45,033 bases of DNA from a virus. The notes under the pieces were generated by a model. It did no database searches and was not told the DNA's origin. It worked only from the letters and a program-made list of their open reading frames with translations. Positions 1,922 to 15,453 of the stretch are shown here, piece by piece. Each line of letters starts with the position of its first letter. Positions within the stretch are counted from its first letter, which is position 1. The stretch spans positions 1 through 45,033 of the IMG/VR virus record IMGVR_UViG_3300042376_001093; one strand, given 5' to 3'. The translations under genes were made by a program, and so were the position numbers.

Positions 1922-3490
1922 CTACTTCGCTGTGTTCCAACGCTCCTCGTTTGCCTTGCGATCAATGGCATCCTTGAACGCCTGCTTCCACATCGGAGTC
2001 AAGCGGGCCTCCTTCAATGCCCACCTCAAATAGTCCACGGGAATCTGCGACAGGGGCTGGCCCTTCCACTTGCCGAAGGGGGCACGAAACTCCCGCCGTC
2101 TGGGAGTGTCGCGGTCTGGTCGGCCGAAGGGGTCGTGGTCGTAGCTGTCGAACGTGACGCCCAGCACCAGCCCCTCACGACGCTTCCGCTCCGTGTCTCT
2201 CTGCAGGCGGGCGGCTTCTCGCTCGGCTTCCATCTCGGCGGCAACGGCGGCGTCGATCTCTTCCAGCGTGGCCTCGTCCTTGAGGCTGTCTCGGACCTTG
2301 ATGCGGATGTCCTTCTTCTGGTCGCAAAGAACGTCCAGAGCGGTGCATAGCTTGTGGCAACGGCTGGAGTCGGTCAGGTCGTGGACAATAAAGAAGGGCT
2401 TGTCGCTGGCTGCTATAGCCGCCTTCCGCTCGGCTGCGGTCTCAAGGCCGTCCGTCACCCCGGTCAGGTTGCGGGTGCCCCGGCCAATCATCTGCGTGTA
2501 CTTGTTCAAAGCCTTCGTTGGCTTGGCAAGGAAGATTTCCGACACGGGCGGGTGATCCCATCCCGTGGTCAGGATGCCTACGTTGATGATGACTTCCCGT
2601 TGCCCAAGCATGAAGCACTTGAGTTCCTCCCGGTACTCTTCTTCGGACTGATAGCTATGCACCAAGCTGCAATGCAGCGAGTGGCGGTCCAGCATCAGGT
2701 CCCTAAGCAGAGTCGCTTGCCTGACCGAATGGGCGAACACTAAGGCTGGCTGCTTAGGCTTGTGGTTCTGGACAATCAGTGCAGCTATGTCGTGAAGGAC
2801 TTCTTCCGCCCTTAGGATTTGGTCTAGCTCCTCAGGGTTGAAGTCCGACGATGCCTTTTTCGCCAACTTCGACAGGTTGATGGACTTGACGTAGTGAACC
2901 TTGACCTTGGGTGGACAGAGATAACCCTCGTCAATCGCCCTGCGGAGGGAAAAGCAGTAAGAAATCTTGTCGTAGAACCCAAGGAGCGAAGCCTTGTCTG
3001 CCCGGTAAGCCGTGGCAGTGCAGCCAAGGACCCTCGCTCCCCCGTCCACCAACTGCTGCAAGATGTCACGGGCCTGCATGGTGAAGCCCCAGTGGGCCTC
3101 GTCCACCACAACCAAGTCCACCTTGCCGATGAACTTCTTGTACCTGTCGTGCCTAAGAAGGGTCTGCCAACTGGCCACCACAAACTCAGTCTCGGGCAGG
3201 GCACTGAGATCAGCCTGCTCAATGTCAGGTTCGCAGTTCCTCAACGAGCGAATCGTCTTTACGGTCTGCCCAATCAGTTCGATCAGCGGAACGATGACCA
3301 GAGTTCTGGCCCCCTCCCGGGGCAACAGGACAAACGTCCGCGTCTTGCCTGTGCCGGTCGGGAGTTCCAGAAGCAGCTTCTTCAAGCCTTGCCGCCAGTC
3401 CGAACGCAAAGCAGTGATCGCCTCCTTTTGGTAGTCCCTAAGAAGGTGATCAAAGAGTGGCAGGGATTGGCACTTTGCTGGTGGCTTCAT
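1922..3490 (-). CDS. Superfamily 2 DEAH helicase with C-terminal DUF3820-like domain
   Basis: A 522-residue ATP-dependent DNA or RNA translocase. Visible motifs: Walker A LPTGTGKT (43-50), DEAH (130-133), motif III TATAYR (158-163), a second RecA-like lobe with GILTTGWDHP (305-314), and motif VI QMIGRGTR (333-340). The arrangement is that of RecG/UvsW/type III restriction-like phage helicases. A charged Glu/Arg-rich helix (about 405-440) leads to a C-terminal DUF3820-like module (about 468-500) also encoded as a free protein downstream. I chose the ATG at 3490, with GGGGGT five bases upstream, over one 45 bases earlier that would overlap the preceding gene. With the Erf and exonuclease genes it probably works in recombination-dependent replication or fork remodelling. 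Confidence 0.92.
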   Translation of the reverse strand: MKPPAKCQSLPLFDHLLRDYQKEAITALRSDWRQGLKKLLLELPTGTGKTRTFVLLPREGARTLVIVPLIELIGQTVKTIRSLRNCEPDIEQADLSALPETEFVVASWQTLLRHDRYKKFIGKVDLVVVDEAHWGFTMQARDILQQLVDGGARVLGCTATAYRADKASLLGFYDKISYCFSLRRAIDEGYLCPPKVKVHYVKSINLSKLAKKASSDFNPEELDQILRAEEVLHDIAALIVQNHKPKQPALVFAHSVRQATLLRDLMLDRHSLHCSLVHSYQSEEEYREELKCFMLGQREVIINVGILTTGWDHPPVSEIFLAKPTKALNKYTQMIGRGTRNLTGVTDGLETAAERKAAIAASDKPFFIVHDLTDSSRCHKLCTALDVLCDQKKDIRIKVRDSLKDEATLEEIDAAVAAEMEAEREAARLQRDTERKRREGLVLGVTFDSYDHDPFGRPDRDTPRRREFRAPFGKWKGQPLSQIPVDYLRWALKEARLTPMWKQAFKDAIDRKANEERWNTAK

Positions 3491-4002
3491 TGGGCACCCC
3501 CTAGTCGGGCAGGACCTGAGATAGGGAGTGGCCAATTTCCTGCATCTTGCTGCGGCTCCTCCCGATCCACCGGCTCCTCGCCTGCTCTTCTGTCCAAGAG
3601 TTCTTGATAAGGTCCCGGAGCCTCTGTATCTCTCTTTCGTCGGGGTCTTTTTCCCTTGCCTTTTCCAGTGCCCTTGGCCTCATCACCTTCCGTTCGTGGA
3701 GCATCCGATAAATCCCTTTCCTGCTGAACTGCTGGTATGTCATCTGAACCTGATACACGCTCATCCCCGACTGGTAATCCGAGATGATTTGCTCCTGCCA
3801 ATCCGGTGGTATCTCCTGACCATGCGCGATCATCTGTCTGCTCTCCTAGGAAAGAGTTGGTGTGTTGATCCAAGGCCGCCCGCACGACACGAAGTTCCGC
3901 GAACAGCATTGGGACTGCCCGCATCAGAATCAGCGGAAGCTGGTTCAGGTCGCTGTAGACGATCAGCCGCTCTAGCTGGTCAATCTCTGCGTCAGACATC
4001 AT
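3487..4002 (-). CDS. Small acidic-helical protein whose frame runs on across the next gene
   Basis: The start is an ATG-ATG pair at 4002/3999 with GGAGG six bases upstream, overlapping the end of the Erf gene. The first 60 residues (MSDAEIDQLERLIVYSDLNQ, then LPLILMRAVPMLFAELRVVR) form convincing helices. After about residue 65 the sequence turns Gly/Lys/Arg/Pro-rich and lies out of frame over the HTH-like gene. Either this is a true overlapping pair, or the protein has a non-conserved tail because no stop occurs until 3487. No family recognised. Confidence is good for the first third only. Confidence 0.5.
   Translation of the reverse strand: MMSDAEIDQLERLIVYSDLNQLPLILMRAVPMLFAELRVVRAALDQHTNSFLGEQTDDRAWSGDTTGLAGANHLGLPVGDERVSGSDDIPAVQQERDLSDAPRTEGDEAKGTGKGKGKRPRRKRDTEAPGPYQELLDRRAGEEPVDREEPQQDAGNWPLPISGPARLGGAQ
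3501..3833 (-). CDS. Small helix-turn-helix-like protein
   Basis: The 110-residue protein has an N-terminal PPDWQEQIISDYQSGMSVYQ stretch followed by KGIYRMLHERK, which reads as a homeodomain- or resolvase-type helix-turn-helix (residues 10-50). A basic helix and a WTEEQARSRWIGRSR tail follow. A DNA-binding or regulatory role is inferred. The start is an ATG with AGGAG nine bases upstream. It lies entirely inside another minus-strand frame (3487-4002) that is open across it; amino-acid composition suggests this frame is the coding one in the shared region. Confidence 0.6.
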   Translation of the reverse strand: MIAHGQEIPPDWQEQIISDYQSGMSVYQVQMTYQQFSRKGIYRMLHERKVMRPRALEKAREKDPDEREIQRLRDLIKNSWTEEQARSRWIGRSRSKMQEIGHSLSQVLPD

Positions 4003-4663
4003 TGGCCACCTCCTGCTTGATGGCCTTGCCGTACTTCTTCCGCAGCCGCTTGCAGTCGGCGGCAGTGACGGCCCCCTGCTCAACGAGAATGTCGAGGTGG
4101 TGCAGGATCAGAGTGACCTGCTCGACGTTGTCCTTCTCCTTCTCAAGCTTGGCCTCGGCCCGCTTGATGAGGTCGCTCTTGGTCTCCTCGACCGGAGCCT
4201 CGACAGGGGCAGCGGCTTCTTCAGCAGGGGCTGCTGCAACGGGCTGCTCGTCGCCAGCCAGCCAGCCACCAGCCAAGCACCGGAAGAGAATCTTCTGGGC
4301 GTAGGTGCATTGGATTTCAAACGTCTGGATGCCCGGCCGATCCTCAGGCGTGAAGCCCAGCATCAACGGGCACACACAAGACACCCACTCCCCGCTCTCA
4401 TGGTTCAGCCGACCGACCATGACCCAGCCATGAACGGCTTGGAATCCGGTGAGGAACGTCGGCATGGTGAAGCCGTTTGCCAGCAACGACGGCAGAAGGG
4501 CATCACAAATGTCCTTGAGGGTGGCGTACCGGAATCCCTCTTCCTTGTTCTCACCGCTCTTGGCAATCGCCTTGTAGGTGGCCTGAGCCTTCCGCAACGC
4601 TGCGGTAAAAGACTTGGTCTCAGGCGAACTACTCACTCCGCTCAGTCCGTGATCCAGTTGCAT
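3992..4663 (-). CDS. erf: Erf-family single-strand DNA annealing protein
   Basis: A 223-residue protein with the Erf core: YKAIAKSG, FRYATLKDICDALLPSLLANG (44-64), then a beta section (WVMVGRLNHESGEWVSCVCP, 80-99) and FEIQCTYAQKILFRCLAGG (115-133), which matches the family's conserved TYARRYAL region. After residue 135 an Ala/Pro/Glu linker leads to a charged helical tail. Erf proteins of phage P22 type bind and anneal single-stranded DNA in recombination. The start has AAAGGAGA seven bases upstream inside the end of the exonuclease gene, with which it makes a standard exonuclease-annealase pair. The call rests on pattern, not on alignment. Confidence 0.8.
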   Translation of the reverse strand: MQLDHGLSGVSSSPETKSFTAALRKAQATYKAIAKSGENKEEGFRYATLKDICDALLPSLLANGFTMPTFLTGFQAVHGWVMVGRLNHESGEWVSCVCPLMLGFTPEDRPGIQTFEIQCTYAQKILFRCLAGGWLAGDEQPVAAAPAEEAAAPVEAPVEETKSDLIKRAEAKLEKEKDNVEQVTLILHHLDILVEQGAVTAADCKRLRKKYGKAIKQEVANDV

Positions 4664-5645
4664 TTCTGCTCTCCTTTAGAACCCAACGAGGAACAACCAA
4701 CTCCGTAATCTGGCCAGCATCCGGCTGGTTCCAGTGGTCGATAAGCAGCCGCGTCTTGAGGTCTATGCGTGTAGACCTGAGGTCACGACGGGCTGACTTG
4801 AGAAGCTGCTCTGGCAGCACAACTGCGTGGCACTCATAGGGAGGCACGGTTGACGAGAGCAGGAAAACAAACTTGGTTGCCGGTATGCCTGCGGCTCTTG
4901 CACCCGACAGGTAATGCTCGGCTTGGAATGCGTATCCGTAATCAATGACGGATCGCCAGAAGGTCTTGAGCGGCTGACGTTCCTTTGTGGTTTTTAAATC
5001 CCACAGGAACGTGGCAGCACACGCATCAGGACGGCACTTCAGCTTGAGGCCGGTCTCTGGGTCTATCCACCGGATGCTGAACTCACGGTGTTCTGTCTGC
5101 TCTTGAAGCCGCCCAAAGATCGGGTTGGCCAAGATCGCATCGAACTGCCTGTGATACGCCTCAGCTTCTTCAACGGACAGACAGATGGCATCGGCACTCT
5201 GGCCTGCCAGCCACTCTTCGGTCTTCTTGGTGCGGCGACCATCAGCCCCAAGGACTTCCTTGGGAATGACAACTACGCGGCCCCACCAAGCACTGGGCCC
5301 TTGCTCGGCCCATTCGTGAACGTGCGTTCCCTTTACAAGGGATGCCCCGAATGGGTTACTTATCCCGCCAGAGATATACCGGCCGTGGAAGTACAGCGGG
5401 CCGTTGGCCCACAAGTCCCATAGCTGGCTCTTGCTCCACCACTCCTTGTCGGCGTGGTAGGCATTGATCGGCTCATCAAACCGGAGAGCAGTAGTAGCGG
5501 CGGCCGGACTCGAACCGGCGACACCCGGCTTATGAAGCCGGTGCCCTTGGGGGGTGAGGCCACCCGAAGGTTTTGCCTCGTCGTGGTGGTTTTCGCCCCC
5601 CAAAGCCGAACTATTGTCTCTTTTTACGCAAGGAGACAGTTCCAT
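4629..5645 (-). CDS. PD-(D/E)XK exonuclease (RecB/Cas4/exonuclease VIII type); 5' part contains the attP core
   Basis: The 338-codon frame has the nuclease fold: helix WWSKSQLWDLW (69-79), H108/H110 in GTHVHEW, E188 (HREF), D207 (CRPDAC), D216 and K218 (WDLKTT), and QAEHY (241-245), the QxxxY motif of RecB-family nucleases. It would digest double-stranded DNA ends to feed the annealase. The start is unusual. Downstream of the tRNA-half sequence (codons 35-51) there is no ATG, GTG or TTG before the nuclease domain, so translation must begin upstream, at the ATG 5645 (overlapping the integrase start on the other strand) or a TTG at 5603, neither with a clear ribosome site. The first 60 residues look unstructured. 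In a lysogen this end would be replaced by host DNA. Confidence 0.88.
   Translation of the reverse strand: MELSPCVKRDNSSALGGENHHDEAKPSGGLTPQGHRLHKPGVAGSSPAAATTALRFDEPINAYHADKEWWSKSQLWDLWANGPLYFHGRYISGGISNPFGASLVKGTHVHEWAEQGPSAWWGRVVVIPKEVLGADGRRTKKTEEWLAGQSADAICLSVEEAEAYHRQFDAILANPIFGRLQEQTEHREFSIRWIDPETGLKLKCRPDACAATFLWDLKTTKERQPLKTFWRSVIDYGYAFQAEHYLSGARAAGIPATKFVFLLSSTVPPYECHAVVLPEQLLKSARRDLRSTRIDLKTRLLIDHWNQPDAGQITELVVPRWVLKESRNATGSRTERSE
5495..5541 (-). other. attP core: 3' half of a CAT-anticodon tRNA gene
   Basis: Read on the minus strand this folds as a tRNA from the anticodon stem to the discriminator base: 5-bp stem CCGGC/GCCGG around the loop TTCATAA (anticodon CAT, + strand 5532-5534), variable loop GTGTC, and T-arm GCCGG-TTCGAGT-CCGGC. 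The 3' acceptor strand CGCCGCT and A follow. No matching 5' acceptor strand or D-arm lies upstream (5542-5580), so it is not a complete tRNA. A tRNA 3' half next to a tyrosine integrase is the classic phage attachment core, restoring the host tRNA on insertion. The target is predicted to be a tRNA-Met or tRNA-Ile2 (CAT) gene. Confidence 0.85.
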
Positions 5646-6507
5646 GATCGACGTAGCACTCCATTATTGCAGTGAAAGAGACCTGTCGGCAGATTACCGG
5701 CAAGCGTTGACAAGAGTGGCCCGCTCAATGCAGGCCAGCGGCATCACTCCGTTGACGCTTGAAGACTCCGTGTTCAATCGGTGGCTTCTGGGGGCCGCGC
5801 CGTCGCAGTCCACCACACGATCCAACTACAGGCGGATGGGGCTCACACTCTGGCGGGCCGCACTCGACTTGCAGTTGGCGACTCATCGTATCGGAAGGGT
5901 TGCCAGAGTCAAGTGCCGGGTTGCACCGCCCGTTGCATGGTCGGCCAGCGAACTTTCCCGGCTGCTGTCTCACGCAGAGCAGATGACCGGCGTGTTCCGT
6001 GCCAGCGGTTGTCCGCAGAGCCTTTTCTGGCGGGGCTGGATTCTCACTGGCTACGAAACCGGCGTTCGTTTCAGAGACCTTCACTATCTGCAGGCCAACC
6101 AGATGCGGGACTGCCGACTGTGGGTGGTCCAGCACAAGACGGGCCGACCGCTCGGGAAGCAGCTTTCTGCAAATTGCCAAAGTGTCCTTTGCGATCTTGC
6201 AAAGCTTTCTACAGACGGCTCCCTTTTTCGCTGGGCCCTGAGCCGAAAACACGTTTTCTTGCATTTCCGAAAATTGGTGAAAGACGCTGGTCTTGCTGGG
6301 TCGAGCAAGTTCCTTCGCCGCAGTGGGGCCACGGCAGTAGAGATGGCCAGCCCCGGAGCGGCCAGCAAATTTCTGGGTCATCTGTCACCCGGACTAGCAG
6401 CAAAGCATTACCTTGATCCTACCCTGTTGGCAGAGCGGCAACCCTCGCCGCCTCCAATCTGCGTCACTCAAAGTAAGACTGCGGGTCCGTCCGTCGCTTC
6501 TTCGTAG
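5644..6507 (+). CDS. int: Tyrosine-recombinase integrase
   Basis: A 287-residue site-specific recombinase. The ATG at 5644 has AAGGAGA seven bases upstream. An N-terminal core-binding helical domain (about 1-90) precedes the catalytic domain: R142 in ETGVRFRDL, K165 in HKTGR, R225 in FLRRSGATAVE, H246 in LGHLSPG, and nucleophile Y256 in AAKHYLDP. The usual His of HxxR is Lys222, a tolerated variant. It should recombine the tRNA half at 5495-5541 with a host tRNA gene. It is one of only two convincing plus-strand genes here, divergent from the exonuclease and overlapping the end of the giant protein gene tail-to-tail by 44 bases. Confidence 0.95.
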   Translation: MIDVALHYCSERDLSADYRQALTRVARSMQASGITPLTLEDSVFNRWLLGAAPSQSTTRSNYRRMGLTLWRAALDLQLATHRIGRVARVKCRVAPPVAWSASELSRLLSHAEQMTGVFRASGCPQSLFWRGWILTGYETGVRFRDLHYLQANQMRDCRLWVVQHKTGRPLGKQLSANCQSVLCDLAKLSTDGSLFRWALSRKHVFLHFRKLVKDAGLAGSSKFLRRSGATAVEMASPGAASKFLGHLSPGLAAKHYLDPTLLAERQPSPPPICVTQSKTAGPSVASS

Positions 6508-9500
6508 ATATGACACCGCTGCGTAATTCACGCTCACGGGCAAGCTCTTTCCCAAGCTGACGTTCCAAGGCCATCAACTCAAGCAGCTCGTTGTCCACGA
6601 AAGGCTTGGAGTCCTCGGGGATAAAAGTCTGAGTGAAGTTCCTTACCAGAGGGTCAGCCTGCATCATCTCGGCAATCTTCTTTCGGGCGTCGATTCGCCG
6701 GGCCTGATCGTCTACGTTCTGGAACTTGACCCCAGAGGTGGCGTTAATTCCCATCTGCCAAAGCCTATCCCTAAAGTCGGGCAGCTTCTCATCATCCAAA
6801 AGCCTATTGGTGATCTGGAGTGTGCGGGGAGCGAACGGCAGGAGGTTCAGGACGGGGTCAAGATTCTTGATCGTCTGCCCCCAAGCACTCTGCGGGTGAA
6901 CACCAATGAGGTCCTCGGCCAAAGTCTGAGAGACAGTCTCCATGTCCTTCAGTGGTCGCTTGGTGTAGAAGTTTTCCCCTGTTACGGTTTGTGCGATCTC
7001 TTTGAGCAAGGGGTGGGCAAGCTTCCCAACGGCGTCAGTGCCGGTATTCCACGCGGTCCCAGCGATGCTCGGGGTCCCGTCCCTCTGGAACCCGGGCTTG
7101 ATCATGTTGATCTGGTCGATGCCCGGCAAGTCTATGTCGGTAAGCCAAGGCGTCACCCCTTCCTTGACCCCACCAAACGGTCTGCTCAGGCGTCCCTCAA
7201 CAGGAGTGCCATACGAACCACGAATGCTTTCGGGAACGTACTCCTCCTCTTCGGAGTGCAGCACCGCCTCGGGAAGCCGCATCCCAAGCTGGGTGTACCT
7301 GCCGCCGGGGTGATCCATGATCTGCTTGGCAACCCACTTGCTGGTCCGTGAGGTGTAAGACCAGAACGGAATCAGCCGCCTGAAGAAGTTCTTCTCCAGA
7401 GTGGTAAGGCTGTCGTAGTCAACGTGGGCTGTTAGCACCCTTTTACCGGCCTCCATGGGGTCAACACCCTGCCGAAGCAGGCCGTTGAACAGAGCCATGC
7501 GGTTGATCTGGTCGGTAATGTCGCCCGACTTGGCAGACCATCGCAGGAACGGGTTGCCGATGTTCGTGCTGTCTTGAAGGCCAAGCTCACCAAACTTGTC
7601 CCAGTTCTTGGTTAGTTCTGAAACTGCGTGTTCGGCTGGCTTTGGAAGAGTGTTGCCTGTCAGCTTGTCCCAAGCCGCATAGCCCGTGGTGGTCCTCGGG
7701 TTCCAACCCGGGAGAAGCTCGTCCGCTACGTTGACACCACCTTGAAGAGCGGTGGCCCGGCCAGCAAGGTCCGACTGCCGCCTGCCAGAGGTCACTCCCG
7801 CTGCGGCAATGTCAGAGATGTATGCCCGCTTCCTTTCGTCGGGAGCCATGCCCTTGTACTTGGGCCAAGTGGCAAGGTGTTCGTCCAGCTTTTCCCAGTT
7901 CCCCTGAATCAAGTCTTTGGCGGAAGAGTAGCCAGCCATGGTGTCCCTGCCACTGCCAAGCTCGACAAGGTTTGTGAACCCGGCTGCGTACCAGTCCCTG
8001 TTTTTGGATGCTGGCCAAGCCAAAATGGTGGTCTTCCACATGGCGGTGAACCTGTCGAAGAAAGCCAGCCAGTCCCGCTGAACCTCCGGGTACTTGTAGA
8101 AGTCCGCAATCTTGGCCATCGCACTCACGACCCGCTTGTCCACAGACACGTTCCGAAGCTTGATGTCTTCTGCGGGGAATCGGCTGGCAAGCCTGTTGGC
8201 GATCTGCGTCTTGGCCCCCATCTGGACCTGAACGGGGAGCTTGGTCTGCGGCAGCGTGAACAGGTCCAAGTCCTTGAGGGCTTTCCCCATGGACACATGC
8301 ACGTTCTTGTCCGTAACTGTCTTGTAGTTCTGGAGCTTGGCAGACTTGGCTAGGAAATCCTCCATGGTGGAGGCAACAGCCAATGCCCGCTCATTGCCAA
8401 CCACCGAGCGGGTGAAGTCATCAACGAAGCTGGACCCGAAGAGCGGCATCCCGGCATCCAGAGACTTCTGGTCAAGCTGCCGCAGAGTACGGGCAAGCAA
8501 GGACGCCTGCTTCATTGTGTACTCTGGGCCTGTCCCGGCCGGGAACAGCTTGGCAGACTCCCCGTCCATCACTTTCTTGATGTACCTCGCAGCCTCAAGG
8601 TCGCTGCTTAGGAGCCTGTCTGGCCCAGCAACCTGCGGGTCAAGGCTGAGCTTGTTGAGAACGTCGGTGCCGCCGGGGCTTTTCAACGGGTCTTTCCGGG
8701 CCATCTGGTCGCCGGTCATTGCCGAGAAAGACTTCCCGCCGCTCGACTTTCCTGAGCCCTCTTCTGTGATCTTCTGCCAGAAGGACATATCGTCCACATG
8801 GCGAGGGAAGTACATGGTCTTGAACGGGTCCTGCAGTTCCTCACTGCCAAGCCCAGCCTGAGCCCTCTTCGACAAGTACTCGGCAGCAAGCCCGGGTTGG
8901 GTTGGGACGAAGTTGCTGCCGGTCTTGAGAGCTGCATAGGCCCCCTGACCGTGCCACATATCGACAAACCGCTGTAAGTCTGACCTGCTGCTAATCATCT
9001 TGAGGTCTTCGGGCGAGGGTCTGCCCTCAAGAACACGACGCATGGCCCGTCCGACTTCGTTGTCCCCAAAGACGCTGGGGTCGAGGTCTTGCAGGTGCTG
9101 GCTGGCTTTGAACCGACCGGCAGACTCACCGGCCTTCAGGGCATTGGTGAGTTCTTTGCCAATGATCTGCACTGATTCCTTTGGGGAACCGGCTGCACTC
9201 CTGTCGAAAGCTGCATAGCCGTACCGAACAGGGGCCGACCACCGCAGGGCTTGACCAGCCTTGTCAATGTTGCGGGCAATGGTCTCGCCAAAGGGGCCGA
9301 GGTTCATGCCCGTCTGAACGTAGTCAGAAAGCGGAAGGCCAATGCCAATGTCATAGCGAAGGGGCGAGTCCTTGACCTGATCGTAGTTCTGCTTGTACCT
9401 GCCAAGCCAATCGTCCACCTTCTTGGTGGCGGCTGCTGGGTCAGCCTGAGCTTCGATGATGTCCTTGACGGTCAGGTTTCGCCGGGAGGTCACCGTTCCA

Positions 9501-10102
9501 GCCAGCGGTCTGGCCAAGAGGTCAGCGTCGGTCAGGTCGTTGGCAATCTCGGACGCACTCGGCCTTACCCCCGGAGACTTCCAGCCTCGGCCAAAGTTCT
9601 CCCACCAAGAATCCAAAGCGTTCTGGGTGTACTTGCTGCCCAAGTCTCCGTCTTGAATGAGCTTCTTGCTCATCACACGGGTGGCGTCATCAAGCAGGCC
9701 AGCACCCCGGAGGGCCTCGGCACCGCGAGTCAGGCCCGGTCCAACGTAGGTGGTCGGGTCAGTGAGCGCACCAGCAGCAAACTCTGCAAGCGGTCTTCCC
9801 CATCCGCCCAAGGCTTCAGAGCTTGGCCGAAGACCCAACTCGGCAAGCATCTTGCCAGTGGTTGTGCCGCTGCCGAGGGACTGGCCTGCAATCGTATCCC
9901 TGACAAGGGACGCAGGGGCATCCAGTACGTCAAAGAGAAGCTCGGCCCCCTGAAGGGTGCGGCCTGCCACCTTGTCAAGAAGGGACTCCCTTTCTTCAGG
10001 AGAAAGGGCCGTACCCGCGACCGGGCTTTCGCTGTCGAAGTAGCTGCCGCCGTAGCCGATCTGCTTCCGGCGACCGCGTGGAGGGTCAAAGTAAGACTCC
10101 AC
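6464..10102 (-). CDS. Giant internal/ejected virion protein (1212 aa) with LPD38-like C-terminal region
   Basis: The start is GTG at 10102 with AAGGAGGGG just upstream. The protein is long, mostly helical and without a signal peptide. Early segments read LTDPTTYVGPG, and near two thirds is HVDYDSLTTLEKNFFRRLIP then FWSYTSRT, a pattern I associate with C-terminal parts of large polyvalent phage proteins (LPD38 type). The extreme ends share a short SYF motif (ESYFDPP, GSYFDSE and PQSYFE). As the last gene of the structural block, after the tail nozzle and two other very large proteins, it fits a T7 gp14-16-like role: packaged in the head and ejected with the DNA. No lysozyme motif is seen. The role is inferred from position and size. 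Confidence 0.8.
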   Translation of the reverse strand: MESYFDPPRGRRKQIGYGGSYFDSESPVAGTALSPEERESLLDKVAGRTLQGAELLFDVLDAPASLVRDTIAGQSLGSGTTTGKMLAELGLRPSSEALGGWGRPLAEFAAGALTDPTTYVGPGLTRGAEALRGAGLLDDATRVMSKKLIQDGDLGSKYTQNALDSWWENFGRGWKSPGVRPSASEIANDLTDADLLARPLAGTVTSRRNLTVKDIIEAQADPAAATKKVDDWLGRYKQNYDQVKDSPLRYDIGIGLPLSDYVQTGMNLGPFGETIARNIDKAGQALRWSAPVRYGYAAFDRSAAGSPKESVQIIGKELTNALKAGESAGRFKASQHLQDLDPSVFGDNEVGRAMRRVLEGRPSPEDLKMISSRSDLQRFVDMWHGQGAYAALKTGSNFVPTQPGLAAEYLSKRAQAGLGSEELQDPFKTMYFPRHVDDMSFWQKITEEGSGKSSGGKSFSAMTGDQMARKDPLKSPGGTDVLNKLSLDPQVAGPDRLLSSDLEAARYIKKVMDGESAKLFPAGTGPEYTMKQASLLARTLRQLDQKSLDAGMPLFGSSFVDDFTRSVVGNERALAVASTMEDFLAKSAKLQNYKTVTDKNVHVSMGKALKDLDLFTLPQTKLPVQVQMGAKTQIANRLASRFPAEDIKLRNVSVDKRVVSAMAKIADFYKYPEVQRDWLAFFDRFTAMWKTTILAWPASKNRDWYAAGFTNLVELGSGRDTMAGYSSAKDLIQGNWEKLDEHLATWPKYKGMAPDERKRAYISDIAAAGVTSGRRQSDLAGRATALQGGVNVADELLPGWNPRTTTGYAAWDKLTGNTLPKPAEHAVSELTKNWDKFGELGLQDSTNIGNPFLRWSAKSGDITDQINRMALFNGLLRQGVDPMEAGKRVLTAHVDYDSLTTLEKNFFRRLIPFWSYTSRTSKWVAKQIMDHPGGRYTQLGMRLPEAVLHSEEEEYVPESIRGSYGTPVEGRLSRPFGGVKEGVTPWLTDIDLPGIDQINMIKPGFQRDGTPSIAGTAWNTGTDAVGKLAHPLLKEIAQTVTGENFYTKRPLKDMETVSQTLAEDLIGVHPQSAWGQTIKNLDPVLNLLPFAPRTLQITNRLLDDEKLPDFRDRLWQMGINATSGVKFQNVDDQARRIDARKKIAEMMQADPLVRNFTQTFIPEDSKPFVDNELLELMALERQLGKELARERELRSGVISTKKRRTDPQSYFE

Positions 10103-10114
10103 TGCCCCCTCCTT

Positions 10115-11887
10115 TTACCACCAGCCGGTCAAGTCCCCGACCCCTTCGTACATACCGTGTGCGGCCGACTGCCACGGACCCTTGGCGTACTCTCCGGTCA
10201 TCGAATACCAAGCGTTGCGGGTGGTGTCGTTCCACGGGTCTGCCCCCAATTGCCGCGCCCAAGTTTCGTAATCGTCACCTTCTTCGCTGGATTCTTTGAC
10301 CGCCATTGTCCACTGGCGGAAGTACTCTTTTTCTTCTGCGTCAACAGCCTGTCCGCTCGACACCTTTGACCAGACCGACTGGGCGTGAGTGGTGCCCTTT
10401 TCTGCAACGTAGGCGTTCTCTCGCTTGGGGTCCGCAACCTGACCGGGACCAAGCGTTTGCTTAAAAGTGGTCCGGTAGACGGCAATCGACTCAGGGCTTG
10501 CCCGCTGGGCTTTCTTTAGGTCATCGGCCTCTTTGGTGACAGGAGACCTGTTTTCGTAAGCCTTCTGCTCCTGAACCGTCTTCATGGCATTGGCTTCGTC
10601 TTGGCCTTTCTGCATGAAGGCGGCAAAGTTTCCAAGTCCAAGCTCTGGGTTCTGGGCATGGTAAGCAACCAGCGTTCGGATCATGTCCTCAGAGGTGCCA
10701 GCGTTTTGCAGGTCCCTCTGGAACATCACGTTTGCTACGGAGGTGTTCATCCTGCGGGCAGTGTTGTCCTGATTGGCCCGCTCACGAATGGCACCACGAA
10801 CGTCGGCACCCTGTTCGGCCTTCCACTGATTGGTGAAAGTGTCGCGGACTTGGGCCGCCCGTTCAGCATGGCTCAGGCCGGTGCCTAGATCGTAAGCTTG
10901 CCGGAACTGCGAGAACGTAACGTCCTGCTTGCCGTCACCATCTCGGTCAGCACGGGCCTGCTTTTCCCACTTGGCGTACTCATCCCGAAGCCACTTCTCG
11001 CCACGCTGATCTTCCATGCGGTCGCGGGTACGCTGGTTGGGGGTGTACCTCATGCCGCCGCCGGGGACTTTGACAACGTCGTAGTCTTCCATCATCCGGT
11101 TGTGGCGGTTTTCAAAAGCAGCAAGGTCCGCTTCAAGCTGCGGCATCTCCTCTTCGGAGTAGGCGTCGTAGTCGATGCCCGCCAGCTTTGCTCTGTACTC
11201 CAGAGAGTTTCCAGCCTGAAGATGCACCGAGCGGTCTGCAGGGGCTCTCGGGACATAACCACCCTTTCCGTCATTGGCAGTCTGGTCCCAAACGTGGTAG
11301 CCCTCACCACCGGGGCCGTCTTTCCTCGGCACCTCAGGCTGGTGCAACTGGTAGTCCCGGGCCTTCTTTTGCTCGGGCGTCAGGTACCTGTCGGGCACAC
11401 TGTCGGCAACACCTCTGCGTCCACGAAGGGGGCTTCCAGCACGACCTCCCGGCATGGGCCTAGTGGCTTCGTAATGGGCCTGCTGCTCGGCAAGAGCCTT
11501 TTCCTTTTCGGCATGGGCTCTGGCTAGGGCGGCCCTTCGCATACGGTCGCCACTGTCTTGGGCAAGCCCACGCTCAAAGCCAATGGCACGGGCGGCACCA
11601 CGATCCAGTGCCCCTTCCTTGTGTTCCCGGTAGTCTTCAGCCCACTGCGGTGCTTCGATGGCCCGGACTGCGACTTCACGACGCCGCCGATTCTCGTCGC
11701 TGGCAGAGGGCTTTGGCTCTTCGGGACCGGGAAGGTGAAGCTCTGGCTCTTCCACCCTGTCGTGACCAGCAGAAAGCTCGGGTCCGTCCAAGGGGGAGCC
11801 CTCACCGCGAGCCAGCCTAGCCCGCTCGGCCCGGTGCCTGCGGATAGTCTCTTCAGAAGATGAGCCCGGTCGATAGGGAATAGCCAT
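10115..11887 (-). CDS. Large virion protein (590 aa), putative internal protein
   Basis: The ATG at 11887 shares its A with the stop of the preceding gene (TGATG), so the two are coupled; a GTG nine bases earlier is the alternative. The protein is very rich in charged residues (Arg, Glu, Asp) with long predicted helices, a Pro/Gly-rich segment near residues 135-200, and no membrane segment. DRDGDGKQD near the middle is a DxDxDG acidic loop of the kind that binds calcium in EF-hand or thrombospondin-3 repeats. It ends in an aromatic, Gly-rich tail (GVGDLTGWW). No family recognised; its place between two giant proteins after the nozzle gene suggests an ejected core protein. Confidence 0.75.
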   Translation of the reverse strand: MAIPYRPGSSSEETIRRHRAERARLARGEGSPLDGPELSAGHDRVEEPELHLPGPEEPKPSASDENRRRREVAVRAIEAPQWAEDYREHKEGALDRGAARAIGFERGLAQDSGDRMRRAALARAHAEKEKALAEQQAHYEATRPMPGGRAGSPLRGRRGVADSVPDRYLTPEQKKARDYQLHQPEVPRKDGPGGEGYHVWDQTANDGKGGYVPRAPADRSVHLQAGNSLEYRAKLAGIDYDAYSEEEMPQLEADLAAFENRHNRMMEDYDVVKVPGGGMRYTPNQRTRDRMEDQRGEKWLRDEYAKWEKQARADRDGDGKQDVTFSQFRQAYDLGTGLSHAERAAQVRDTFTNQWKAEQGADVRGAIRERANQDNTARRMNTSVANVMFQRDLQNAGTSEDMIRTLVAYHAQNPELGLGNFAAFMQKGQDEANAMKTVQEQKAYENRSPVTKEADDLKKAQRASPESIAVYRTTFKQTLGPGQVADPKRENAYVAEKGTTHAQSVWSKVSSGQAVDAEEKEYFRQWTMAVKESSEEGDDYETWARQLGADPWNDTTRNAWYSMTGEYAKGPWQSAAHGMYEGVGDLTGWW

Positions 11888-14800
11888 CAGTGCCACCTTG
11901 ACATGGTTTGCGGAATCTTCTGTGCTTTCTGCGATCCATCAATAAGTGCTTTGAGTTGGCGAAGCCGGTCTTCGGACGATCCCGATGCAGGGAAATCACC
12001 GATGTCTCTTCTGCCTTCTGGGCCGGTTCCTGTTTCAGTCTCGCCGCGAGCGAACGGGTCTTCGTATTCGGGCTGAGTCAAGTTGTTTGCAATCTGGTAG
12101 GCCGCCCCAGCCCCGAGCAGCAAGCCGCCGCCAATCAACGCTTTCTTTTTGGATGGGATGTAGCCCTTGATCCGTTCGGTCAGGGACTTTTTCTTGGGCT
12201 TGCCGTCCTTGCCGACTTTGGACTCTGCGTCAACATCTGTCTTGTTGTCAGTTTTTGCAGGGTCAGGATCGTTCTTTCCAACAACAGGGGCATCGCTCTC
12301 GCCAACATTTGATTTTGCAGCTTGGTCGAGCTTTTCGTTGACGGCATCAACGTCTGCTGGGGTTTTCTTGCCAGCCTGCGGAGCCGGGCCCTTTTGGGCG
12401 GCGGCCTGCTGTGGCTTGGCTTTTGGCTGCGGCTTCGGCTTAGCCTGACCTTTGGGTTTGGCTGCTGTCGTGGCTGCTGCTTGCTGCGTCTGCGGCTTAG
12501 CTTGAGGCTTGGGCTGCGGGGTAGTGGTGGCCTGCGGTGCTGGCTGCGGGGCAGGCTGTGCCGTGGCGGCTTCTGGCTTCCCCTTCTTGTGCGGACCACT
12601 GGCAACCGCCGCGTCGAGCTTGTCCATCACCTCTGCCTTGAAGGCCGCCCGATGGTCAGGGTCGGTGATTGCGTCGTAAGCGTCCTTGGCTTCGCGGTAC
12701 TGAGCCTTAGCCCAAACAAGCTCTTCGGGCGTTGCGTCCTTGTTGCCGAGGATTGTTTCAAACTTGGCAAGCGGCAGTTCGTCTTCTGCTTCAAGGCCGC
12801 CAAGCTGAAAGTCTTCGGCTTCGTCGGCAGCAGCGGCACCCTCGGTCTTGGCCGGGGCACTCTGTTTTCCGTCGCTTTCTAATTGGTACCGGCTGGGCAC
12901 AACCTCCCCGTCAGGCCGGGTGACGTAGCCGCCGGGCTTTGCTGCCGTGACGCTGCGGTTGCCAAGAGCCCGCTCTTCTTCGGCCAGCATTTCCTTCTGC
13001 TTGGTATCGTACTCACGAATCTCTGCCTCGCTCTGGGGGCCGTACCTTTCAACCTTGGCATTGGGAGCCGCCTTGTACCGAGACTTCCAAGCACCCTCAT
13101 CTGCGTGATCCGTGGTCAGCTTCTTGGCCTTTGACTGACGAGCCTGCTCCGTCTTGTAGGCATCAAGCTCTTCCTTGCTGCGGGCAATGTCTTCTGGGTT
13201 GGCTTCAAAGTCGGGGCTGACGGCTGGCTCACCATCACGAACCGACGAGACAATTTCCGGGTGATCGGCCCTCTTGGTCAAATCCCGGAAGTACTCCGCT
13301 GACGGCGATCCGCCTTCAGGCCAAAGAACATTGAAACGAGCGATGGCCCGAGCTTTCTTGCCGTTGGTGTCAGAAGGGAGCTTGGACGCCATGCTTTGGT
13401 AAGCCAGATTGCGAAGCTCCGCGATCCTGCTTGGCTTAGTCGGGAATGAACCGGAGGTTCGGATCGGTTCAGCAACCACATCTCCGGTCTTCGGGTCTCG
13501 GTACACCACCTTGCCATTCTGTGTTCGGTAAAGGGCCCACTCACGAATCCCTTCCTTGCCGCCCTTGAACACTTCCCTGCCTTCAGACCCCTTGAACTTG
13601 TCTGAATTGGCGGTTGCGTTTTCGACGGCAGGAGTTGCGGCAGCTTCCCGGTCGATCCGCTCAAGACTGCCGATCTCCGCGTCATCCGAAAGAGACCTGC
13701 TGTCAGTCGAGCGGCTGGAGTTCTGTGCTTCATCCAAAGCATCGTTGGGGCCGAGTTGTTTTCGTACTTCAGCCAGTTCCTTTGCGGGAACAGGGCCGCT
13801 GCCCTTTGCCGAAAACCGCTCCCGTGCCAGTTCCTCAAGCCCAGCCGCTGCCATCCGGTAGTAGTCGCTGCCTTGGGCCGGTGCTTTATCAGGAGAAAGA
13901 ACGCGGTTCAAAACGTATTCAGCAAACTGCCGGGGGCCGACATTGGGATCGCTGGAGAACCCGGAGCCGTAATCGGAAGGGGAGAGCTTCTTCTGGCCGC
14001 CCTCGGGCTTAACCTGCATCATGTCCCAAAGACGGTCGAGGTTGCCTCTGCCGACGCCCGGGTTTTCGATCATCTGAATGATCAAGTTATCAACGACATC
14101 CTGCTCTGACTTTAGGCTGTTCGTGGCTCGTTGATTGTTTGTCAGGGGCGTAGGCTTCCTGACGGTTGGCTTCTTGACGCCGTTCAGCGTTTCGGTAACG
14201 CGATTGAGTATTTCATTCAGCCGCTTTGTGTCGCCTGATTCTTTGGCTGCTCTGATGGAAGCCACAAGTTCGTCAACGTCACCGAAGGCGGCAGTCATTG
14301 CAGCCTGTGCCTCTTGGCCCCAGCTATCCCATGCGTTTTCATACTTCCGGCCTGCATGAACAGCACCATTATCGAATGGACCAAACGTGCCTTTGTCTTC
14401 TCCGGTTTGCTCAAGGACTCTTCGCGGAACCTTCCTGACGGCCTGCGGCGGCATGGGCGGCGTGTCGGAAATGTTGTTCTTGCGAAGCAGCGTCTTGAGA
14501 ACGTCATCGCCAAGAACAGACAGATCGACTTCGCCTGCACCGGGAAGCTGACGAACCCTTTCCTCAAGCCACTGGCGGGTTTCTTCTGGGCTGATAGTTG
14601 GCTGGTATGACTGGTTGTCGAATACGATTTTCGCCGGGTCTCCCCCATCGACTGTTTCGCCGGGGAGCCTCATGTACGGAGTGGCCTTGAACGTAGAAGC
14701 ACCAGCACCACGCAAACCTTTGGTGTCCACGCCTTCGACAGGGGGCATCCGCTCTGGGTCGCCTTGCTTGTAGGCAAAGTCTCCCGGAGGAACTCCTTCT

Positions 14801-15453
14801 TGCAGGTTGTTTTCTGGGGCAGTCTCGACCACCGGAGAGTCATCGGGCTCGGCTGGCATTACCCGGGCATCTTGCTCACCGGGAACCTGAGTCTTCTCGT
14901 AGGTCACGCGGCCAGACTCTGATCCCTTGACCGCATCCAGTGCAGCCAACCGGGCCCTGTCTGGCTTGCCGCCTTGCAGCAGGCCCATGACTTCGGCGGC
15001 CATGGGAGACCAGCCGCCAAGTTCTTCTCGGTTGGCCTTGGGGAACTCCCTTGCAATGCTCTCGGCAATGCTTGCCTTCTGGTCCGCAGGCAGGGACTTG
15101 AACTCTTTGACAAGCTGAGCAAGGGACTCGCCGTCACCCGACTGAGCAAGGCTGAAAAGAAGCTCGGTCAGGCCACGGGCTCGGGAGCCGGGCACTTCCA
15201 TGCGGGTGCCACCCGGCCCGGCCATCCGGCGTTCTCCGGTCTTCGGGTCGATGCCGCCTTTGGGAAGGGAGTAGCCGTCCTTCTTTTGCTTCAGCAAGCG
15301 TTCCAGAAGCAACTCAAAATTACTGAGTGTGCGGGTGCCGCCGTCCGGTGTAGACACCGACGCGGGGGCCTTCCGGGGAATGCCGACATCCCCCTTGTTC
15401 TTGATCTTGTCGGAGAAGTTGCTGAGCGGAACCCAGTCCGGTGCCCTAGCCAT
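11887..15453 (-). CDS. Giant virion protein (1188 aa) with Pro/Gln/Ala-rich linker and a C-terminal membrane-like helix
   Basis: The N-terminal two thirds are hydrophilic and helical. Near residues 915-990 the segment KDATPEELVWAKAQYREAKD, then AYDAITDPDHRAAF, resembles a J-domain edge but lacks HPD. About 90 residues of low-complexity Pro/Gln/Lys/Ala follow (PQPAPQ, PKPQAKPQTQQ). A basic KKKSLTERIKGYIPSKKK precedes one hydrophobic segment (ALIGGGLLLGAGAAYQIA) near residue 1110. A flexible linker plus one amphipathic or membrane helix would suit a protein ejected to span the cell envelope. The start overlaps the previous gene by eight bases. No family recognised; the role is inferred from order and composition. 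Confidence 0.8.
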   Translation of the reverse strand: MARAPDWVPLSNFSDKIKNKGDVGIPRKAPASVSTPDGGTRTLSNFELLLERLLKQKKDGYSLPKGGIDPKTGERRMAGPGGTRMEVPGSRARGLTELLFSLAQSGDGESLAQLVKEFKSLPADQKASIAESIAREFPKANREELGGWSPMAAEVMGLLQGGKPDRARLAALDAVKGSESGRVTYEKTQVPGEQDARVMPAEPDDSPVVETAPENNLQEGVPPGDFAYKQGDPERMPPVEGVDTKGLRGAGASTFKATPYMRLPGETVDGGDPAKIVFDNQSYQPTISPEETRQWLEERVRQLPGAGEVDLSVLGDDVLKTLLRKNNISDTPPMPPQAVRKVPRRVLEQTGEDKGTFGPFDNGAVHAGRKYENAWDSWGQEAQAAMTAAFGDVDELVASIRAAKESGDTKRLNEILNRVTETLNGVKKPTVRKPTPLTNNQRATNSLKSEQDVVDNLIIQMIENPGVGRGNLDRLWDMMQVKPEGGQKKLSPSDYGSGFSSDPNVGPRQFAEYVLNRVLSPDKAPAQGSDYYRMAAAGLEELARERFSAKGSGPVPAKELAEVRKQLGPNDALDEAQNSSRSTDSRSLSDDAEIGSLERIDREAAATPAVENATANSDKFKGSEGREVFKGGKEGIREWALYRTQNGKVVYRDPKTGDVVAEPIRTSGSFPTKPSRIAELRNLAYQSMASKLPSDTNGKKARAIARFNVLWPEGGSPSAEYFRDLTKRADHPEIVSSVRDGEPAVSPDFEANPEDIARSKEELDAYKTEQARQSKAKKLTTDHADEGAWKSRYKAAPNAKVERYGPQSEAEIREYDTKQKEMLAEEERALGNRSVTAAKPGGYVTRPDGEVVPSRYQLESDGKQSAPAKTEGAAAADEAEDFQLGGLEAEDELPLAKFETILGNKDATPEELVWAKAQYREAKDAYDAITDPDHRAAFKAEVMDKLDAAVASGPHKKGKPEAATAQPAPQPAPQATTTPQPKPQAKPQTQQAAATTAAKPKGQAKPKPQPKAKPQQAAAQKGPAPQAGKKTPADVDAVNEKLDQAAKSNVGESDAPVVGKNDPDPAKTDNKTDVDAESKVGKDGKPKKKSLTERIKGYIPSKKKALIGGGLLLGAGAAYQIANNLTQPEYEDPFARGETETGTGPEGRRDIGDFPASGSSEDRLRQLKALIDGSQKAQKIPQTMSRWH

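Follow-up and report, generated by a model that had tools for sequence, protein, structure and literature searches.

The core of a phage attachment site (attP) forms an in-frame part of the gene for a RecE/ExoVIII-type exonuclease, and integration at a host tRNA-Met gene parts the exonuclease domain from its start codon. For both states the arrangement of the DNA is shown, as are the reading frame and the loss of the start codon on integration, the integrated state being documented on the nuclease side in a lysogen of a second-clade relative. We consider it likely, with a probability of roughly 0.84, that synthesis of the exonuclease is confined to phage DNA in the unintegrated state, its start being severed by integration; use of that start and loss of expression in the lysogen are inferred. 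The window, by which we mean the whole stretch of DNA analysed, comprises the 45,033 bases of an IMG/VR virus record, with the exonuclease and the core on the minus strand and the integrase on the plus strand.

The attP core inside the exonuclease gene

A block of 52 bp (positions 5493-5544, minus strand) matches a Planctomycetia tRNA-Met(CAT) gene without a single difference, covering the 3' part of that gene from its anticodon arm onwards. The match is to the tRNA-Met(CAT) locus L042 of the Planctomycetia MAG WB4_3_0930, and near-identical tRNA-Met genes are present in other Planctomycetota MAGs. The Rfam tRNA family (RF00005) was matched at positions 5502-5563 of the minus strand with 31.3 bits and an E-value of 0.0011, above the Rfam gathering threshold. 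ARAGORN called no complete tRNA gene in the window because the 5' half lacks tRNA sequence: the fragment comprises complete anticodon (CAT) and T arms and the 3' acceptor side, and unrelated sequence stands in place of the 5' half. A block of this kind is what the attP core of a tRNA-targeting integrase typically looks like. The initial annotation had described a minus-strand tRNA 3' half with a CAT anticodon and complete anticodon and T arms, which held in view of the Rfam match and the arms present; the core that it had placed at 5495-5541 also held but was slightly too narrow for the block of identity. As a side observation, the WB4_3_0930 tRNA was the only one found to match the window core across the full 52 bp, and this MAG (loci L039 and L042) carries one intact tRNA-Met plus a second copy of the 3' part behind unrelated sequence. 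The pair could perhaps represent both ends of another integrated element.

Beside the core, and divergent from the exonuclease, lies the gene for a tyrosine integrase (287 aa, positions 5644-6507, plus strand), with the Shine-Dalgarno (SD) sequence AAGGAG just upstream. The profile of the integrase family matches XerC-like and lambda integrase structures. Pfam Phage_integrase is matched by 13 of the 14 aligned integrase relatives, the window member alone being unmatched. No integrase relatives were found among isolate phage records.

The exonuclease ORF (338 aa, positions 4629-5645, minus strand) begins at ATG 5645 and runs through the core as ...GHRLHKPGVAGSSPAAAT.... It opens with a leader of 35 codons (5541-5645, minus strand), consisting of the start codon and a variable N-terminal segment, which would be left on the integrase side after integration; the core segment that follows (5493-5540, minus strand) reads RLHKPGVAGSSPAAAT in the exonuclease frame. 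At the leader start, the SD sequence is GGAG with a spacing of 13 nt. The PHROGs exonuclease VIII family (phrog_412) was matched with an E-value of 1.6e-40 over residues 55-335 of the ORF, and the exonuclease family profile matched PDB entry 3h4r (Exodeoxyribonuclease 8, the solved RecE nuclease) with an E-value of 1.3e-28; both matches place the nuclease domain entirely past the core. By this sequence match over the nuclease domain, the product is a RecE/ExoVIII-type exonuclease, and exonuclease activity on double-strand DNA is inferred.

The first in-frame ATG, GTG or TTG past the core start is a TTG 42 codons on, already within the exonuclease domain, and no standard start suited to the full-length exonuclease was found downstream of the core in the window. 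The frame of ATG 5645 is the only one able to start the nuclease. Two further claims of the initial annotation thus held in the window, namely that the core lies inside the only open frame able to start the PD-(D/E)XK nuclease (ATG 5645 to 4629) and that no ATG, GTG or TTG lies between the core and the nuclease domain.

The exonuclease gene is followed, in one direction, by genes for an Erf-like single-strand annealing protein (positions 3992-4663, minus strand) and then a superfamily 2 DNA helicase (1922-3535, minus strand). The former overlaps the 3' end of the exonuclease gene, has its own SD (AAGGAG, 4676-4671) before ATG 4663, and matches phrog_155 (E 7e-11) and, below the curated cut-off, Pfam ERF (E 2e-4). 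The latter matches phrog_16 (E 1e-67) and Pfam ResIII, DEAD and Helicase_C. Two very long minus-strand ORFs elsewhere in the window, at 6464-10102 (1212 aa) and 11887-15453 (1188 aa), had no PHROGs match.

Conservation of the open leader

Searches based on the integrase and on the core sequence yielded 17 distinct phages, the window included, in which a single open frame runs from the integrase-side start codon through leader and core into the exonuclease. Two further sequences (L057 and L119), in which the core is present and no exonuclease is in frame, were left out. Within the set, integrase identity to the window falls to about 35%, and exonuclease identities range from 32 to 60%. Identity to a host tRNA gene extends over 48-55 bp in 16 of the 17 phages, and the sequence replacing the tRNA 5' half is unrelated from phage to phage. 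ARAGORN calls a tRNA-Met in two relatives.

The leaders are 9-49 codons long, and their pairwise nucleotide identities across the 17 have a median of about 40%. Among the 499 leader codons of the first 16 phages, no stop was found in the nuclease frame versus 15 and 19 in the other two frames. The probability that all of these leaders would be open was about 10^-5.4 in a dinucleotide shuffle, which did not count agreement of frame and was not corrected for relatedness. An exact SD match of at least 5 nt precedes 12 of the 17 leader starts versus 8% of background ATGs. Strong, textbook SD sites are found at the leader start of second-clade phages; in several clade-1 phages, including the window, the SDs are weaker or oddly spaced. 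Third-position GC in the leaders (0.61) is not raised as it is in the exonuclease body (0.73), and by this measure the leader carries no coding signature beyond its openness.

In one phage (L054), the core is read in a different frame, as GFISRVSPVQVRPP, yet the ORF is open from an SD and ATG through the exonuclease. Retention of an open frame after such a change is difficult to account for without translation of the fusion, which we infer, from sequence alone, to be likely. In seven exonuclease relatives located away from the tRNA core, the start precedes the YH motif by 6-19 codons, a stretch in which most att-linked exonuclease genes have no start codon. In L013 and L014, a TTG without an SD lies between the core and the domain.

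Two features were observed at the exonuclease start of second-clade phages. A palindrome such as GTCAGGGT...ACCCTGAC lies just after the start codon in L052, L059, L062, L065, L060 and L054. In L060, a three-codon ORF with a good SD (positions 3922-3933; ATG GTT TCC TAA) overlaps the exonuclease ATG as TAATG; as far as can be inferred without experimental data, this overlap may point to coupled re-initiation.

The integrated state at the host tRNA gene

All 35 host tRNA loci that contain the core have a TAG, and no start codon, upstream of it in both frames used by the phages; the blocking TAG corresponds to tRNA positions 8-10. A lysogen junction was located by exonuclease profile search in contig C271 of genome G189, a MAG. 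Host genes (molybdopterin oxidoreductase-like and MutS-like ORFs, judged by eye from their translations) are followed there by an intact tRNA-Met (L112:7007-7082, minus strand), the exonuclease frame directly behind it, Erf, and genes collinear with phage contig L062. The exonuclease frame matches the family with an E-value of 9e-91 and is closest to second-clade phages (53% to L059). After the TAG, it contains no ATG, GTG or TTG for 163 codons past the core start, and the longest callable exonuclease protein is 140 aa.

On the nuclease side, this contig is a real attL from an independent genome, and it meets the arrangement predicted from free phage sequence. The lysogen belongs to a second-clade relative, not to the window phage, and is the only one found. 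Its integrase-side junction is absent from the assembly, the contig stopping inside the prophage, and the MAG yielded no integrase. Wider searches recovered no lysogen beyond G189; the scanned genomes are of unknown completeness, and the result is no evidence of rarity.

The remaining claims of the initial annotation can be judged against this junction. It had predicted that integration would join the host tRNA 5' half to the nuclease side, which held in the second-clade relative, and that the native start would move to the other junction, for which the start is absent on the nuclease side and the integrase-side junction is unassembled. The comparison it had proposed, of prophage att junctions in host genomes with the window, returned the attL, with an intact tRNA-Met and then a start-less exonuclease. 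Its placing of a nuclease-Erf-helicase operon behind a host tRNA without a start of its own held in part, that is, for the exonuclease start only, since Erf has its own SD. Similarly, the "lytic-only switch" that it had envisaged held only for the exonuclease start codon, and silencing of the rest of the operon was not shown. With an SD retained before Erf, operon-wide silencing would require promoter loss or polarity, neither of which has been shown. Speculatively, transcripts starting at the tRNA promoter could extend into the operon, and untranslated exonuclease RNA might cause polarity.

A strong G+C hairpin was observed in the lysogen at about L112:6960-7005, a few bases past the tRNA 3' end and inside the exonuclease frame. 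Possibly, it is a tRNA terminator without a T run.

Several other candidates were rejected as lysogens. L076 and L081, in which an integrase lies next to tRNA-Met, proved to be other elements, and L017 is the integrase-side junction of another element and has no exonuclease next to it. L017 is a MAG contig labelled Candidatus Kuenenia, with its integrase-side att junction at the same tRNA and two tandem integrase genes. Exonuclease relatives in G120, G229, G388, G257, G169 and G475 are not at the tRNA-Met core. Integrase matches were obtained in 24 of 397 genomes, mostly distant, and an integrase scan of genome contigs returned no match.

Proposed mechanism, alternatives and related systems

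In the mechanism that we propose, the attP core would serve as a functional, in-frame segment of the exonuclease gene of the phage. In free or excised DNA, the integrase-side start codon, the ribosome site and any upstream promoter would be joined via the core to the exonuclease domain, and the product would be a RecE-type exonuclease of full length, whose N-terminal extension derives in part from tRNA sequence. The integrase would recombine attP with the host tRNA-Met gene, with the start segment staying at the integrase-side junction and the exonuclease domain coming to lie directly behind an intact host tRNA with a TAG stop and no start codon. Excision or fresh infection would restore the start. 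As the start and the ribosome site are cut from the domain on integration, the exonuclease would be available only from unintegrated DNA. Use of the leader start, loss of expression in lysogens, its restoration on excision and a benefit of lacking the exonuclease in the lysogen are inferred, in the absence of expression data. A bolder reading is that, in a clade of temperate planctomycete phages, integration is the off-switch of a lytic recombination exonuclease, that the host tRNA supplies codons plus the blocking stop, and that the split was selected, the enzyme being harmful or unwanted in the lysogen; taken as a joint claim, this could as easily prove wrong as right.

The alternative that survives best shares the same mechanism and contests only its selected purpose. 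It holds that the leader is open only for the sake of the lytic exonuclease, that the att site came to be there by landing of an integrase module, and that shut-off in the lysogen is an unselected side effect, the early operon being repressed anyway. In its favour, leader composition and sequence are unconstrained beyond openness, the phages' immunity system has not been identified, and Erf retains its own SD in the window. Against it, the arrangement is kept across the divergence of integrases (about 35% identical) and exonucleases (32-60% identical) and through the L054 frame change. If the arrangement were neutral, one would expect it to have been disrupted in some phage by gene shuffling, but linkage by descent also explains its persistence. 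We lean slightly against this alternative.

A second possibility is that the exonuclease starts past the core at a non-standard codon such as ATC, in which case integration would leave the coding sequence unaffected and the open leader would be fortuitous. Several phages, including the window, do have an ATC immediately ahead of the YH motif, and relatives away from the tRNA core start 6-19 codons from that motif. However, no SD precedes the ATC, which is not universal, being missing at this place in L010, L012, L014 and L066. Moreover, there are 17 open leaders with start codons, 12 of them with good SDs, and L054 is still open after its frame change. We regard this possibility as very improbable. 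Finally, that the tRNA-like block is a decayed or captured tRNA gene and not an attachment site is supported by the Rfam score above the gathering threshold and the two ARAGORN tRNA-Met calls, but can be virtually dismissed, as the 5' half is unrelated in each phage, 48-55 bp are identical to the host in 16 of 17, the integrase adjoins the block, and the junction of intact tRNA and exonuclease in the host MAG (G189:C271) refutes it in practice.

Under the preferred reading, that integration severs the exonuclease from its start, the arrangement would by analogy work like a mirror image of integration-dependent immunity. In mycobacteriophages BPs, Brujita and relatives, attP lies inside the repressor gene near the integrase (Broussard et al. 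2013, as cited in PMC4557955; M. abscessus prophages in PMC8092301 and PMC9934374). Integration trims the repressor C-terminus, upon which the product becomes stable and active (PMC4557955, PMC8092301), and related cores are readable in different frames by different phages (PMC9934374). Common to both cases are an attP core in a phage ORF near a tyrosine integrase, alteration by integration of the protein made, and use of the core as recombination site plus codons. Here, however, the gene encodes a RecE-type exonuclease and not an immunity repressor, and the N-terminus and start are lost, with the free form intact, whereas there the C-terminus is trimmed and the product stabilised.

In Tn916, transfer genes are expressed only after circularization, the control being transcriptional (Celli and Trieu-Cuot 1998, as cited in PMC11658703). 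In our case, too, the gene to one side of att would depend on signals that excision joins to it from the other, its expression being inferred; unlike Tn916, in which transcription crosses att, the coding sequence and start codon span the site, and the element concerned is a phage that targets a host tRNA gene. Helper-embedded PICIs interrupt late genes of prophages, and expression is delayed until excision restores the gene (PMC10111431). Restoration of a phage gene by excision, inferred in the present case, is shared, but there a satellite splits a helper gene, whereas here phage integration splits the phage's own gene. Tyrosine integrases that target tRNA genes have an attP that restores the tRNA 3' half. 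The present core conforms to this in matching the tRNA from its anticodon arm as far as its 3' end, in adjoining the integrase and in rebuilding an intact tRNA at the lysogen junction, but it differs from ordinary systems in that it would also be translated within a phage protein. No case of attP in an exonuclease N-terminus was found in open-access literature searched by keyword, and a full-text search returned essentially no att-site literature on Planctomycetota.

The preferred reading would extend control by integration, known for phage repressors (C-terminal change) and conjugative elements (promoter joining), to the N-terminus of a lytic enzyme, and host tRNA sequence would be translated inside a phage protein if the leader start is used as inferred. 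It yields a simple rule, whereby an integrated phage has no exonuclease start. Annotation of such prophages will show a short exonuclease fragment, and the arrangement offers a handle on lysogeny in Planctomycetota.

The divergent start region has features of its own. A CATG palindrome (5643-5646) is common to both start codons, that of the exonuclease on the minus strand and that of the integrase on the plus strand, and therefore each mRNA leader is antisense to the first codons of the other gene. One CATG serves both starts in nine of the ten clade-1 phages, the exception being L012. Promoter-like sites on the integrase side were weak in the window, L054 and L062 and lacking in L065, in scans too weak for use. 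A hairpin with the integrase SD in its 3' arm (5608-5642, plus strand; -12.4 kcal/mol, z -2.6) overlaps the N-terminal codons of the exonuclease. Its inverted repeat recurs at the same place in the other nine clade-1 phages, with hairpin strength varying (z -0.7 to -3.4), and it could possibly limit integrase translation or constitute protein binding sites, as inferred from sequence alone.
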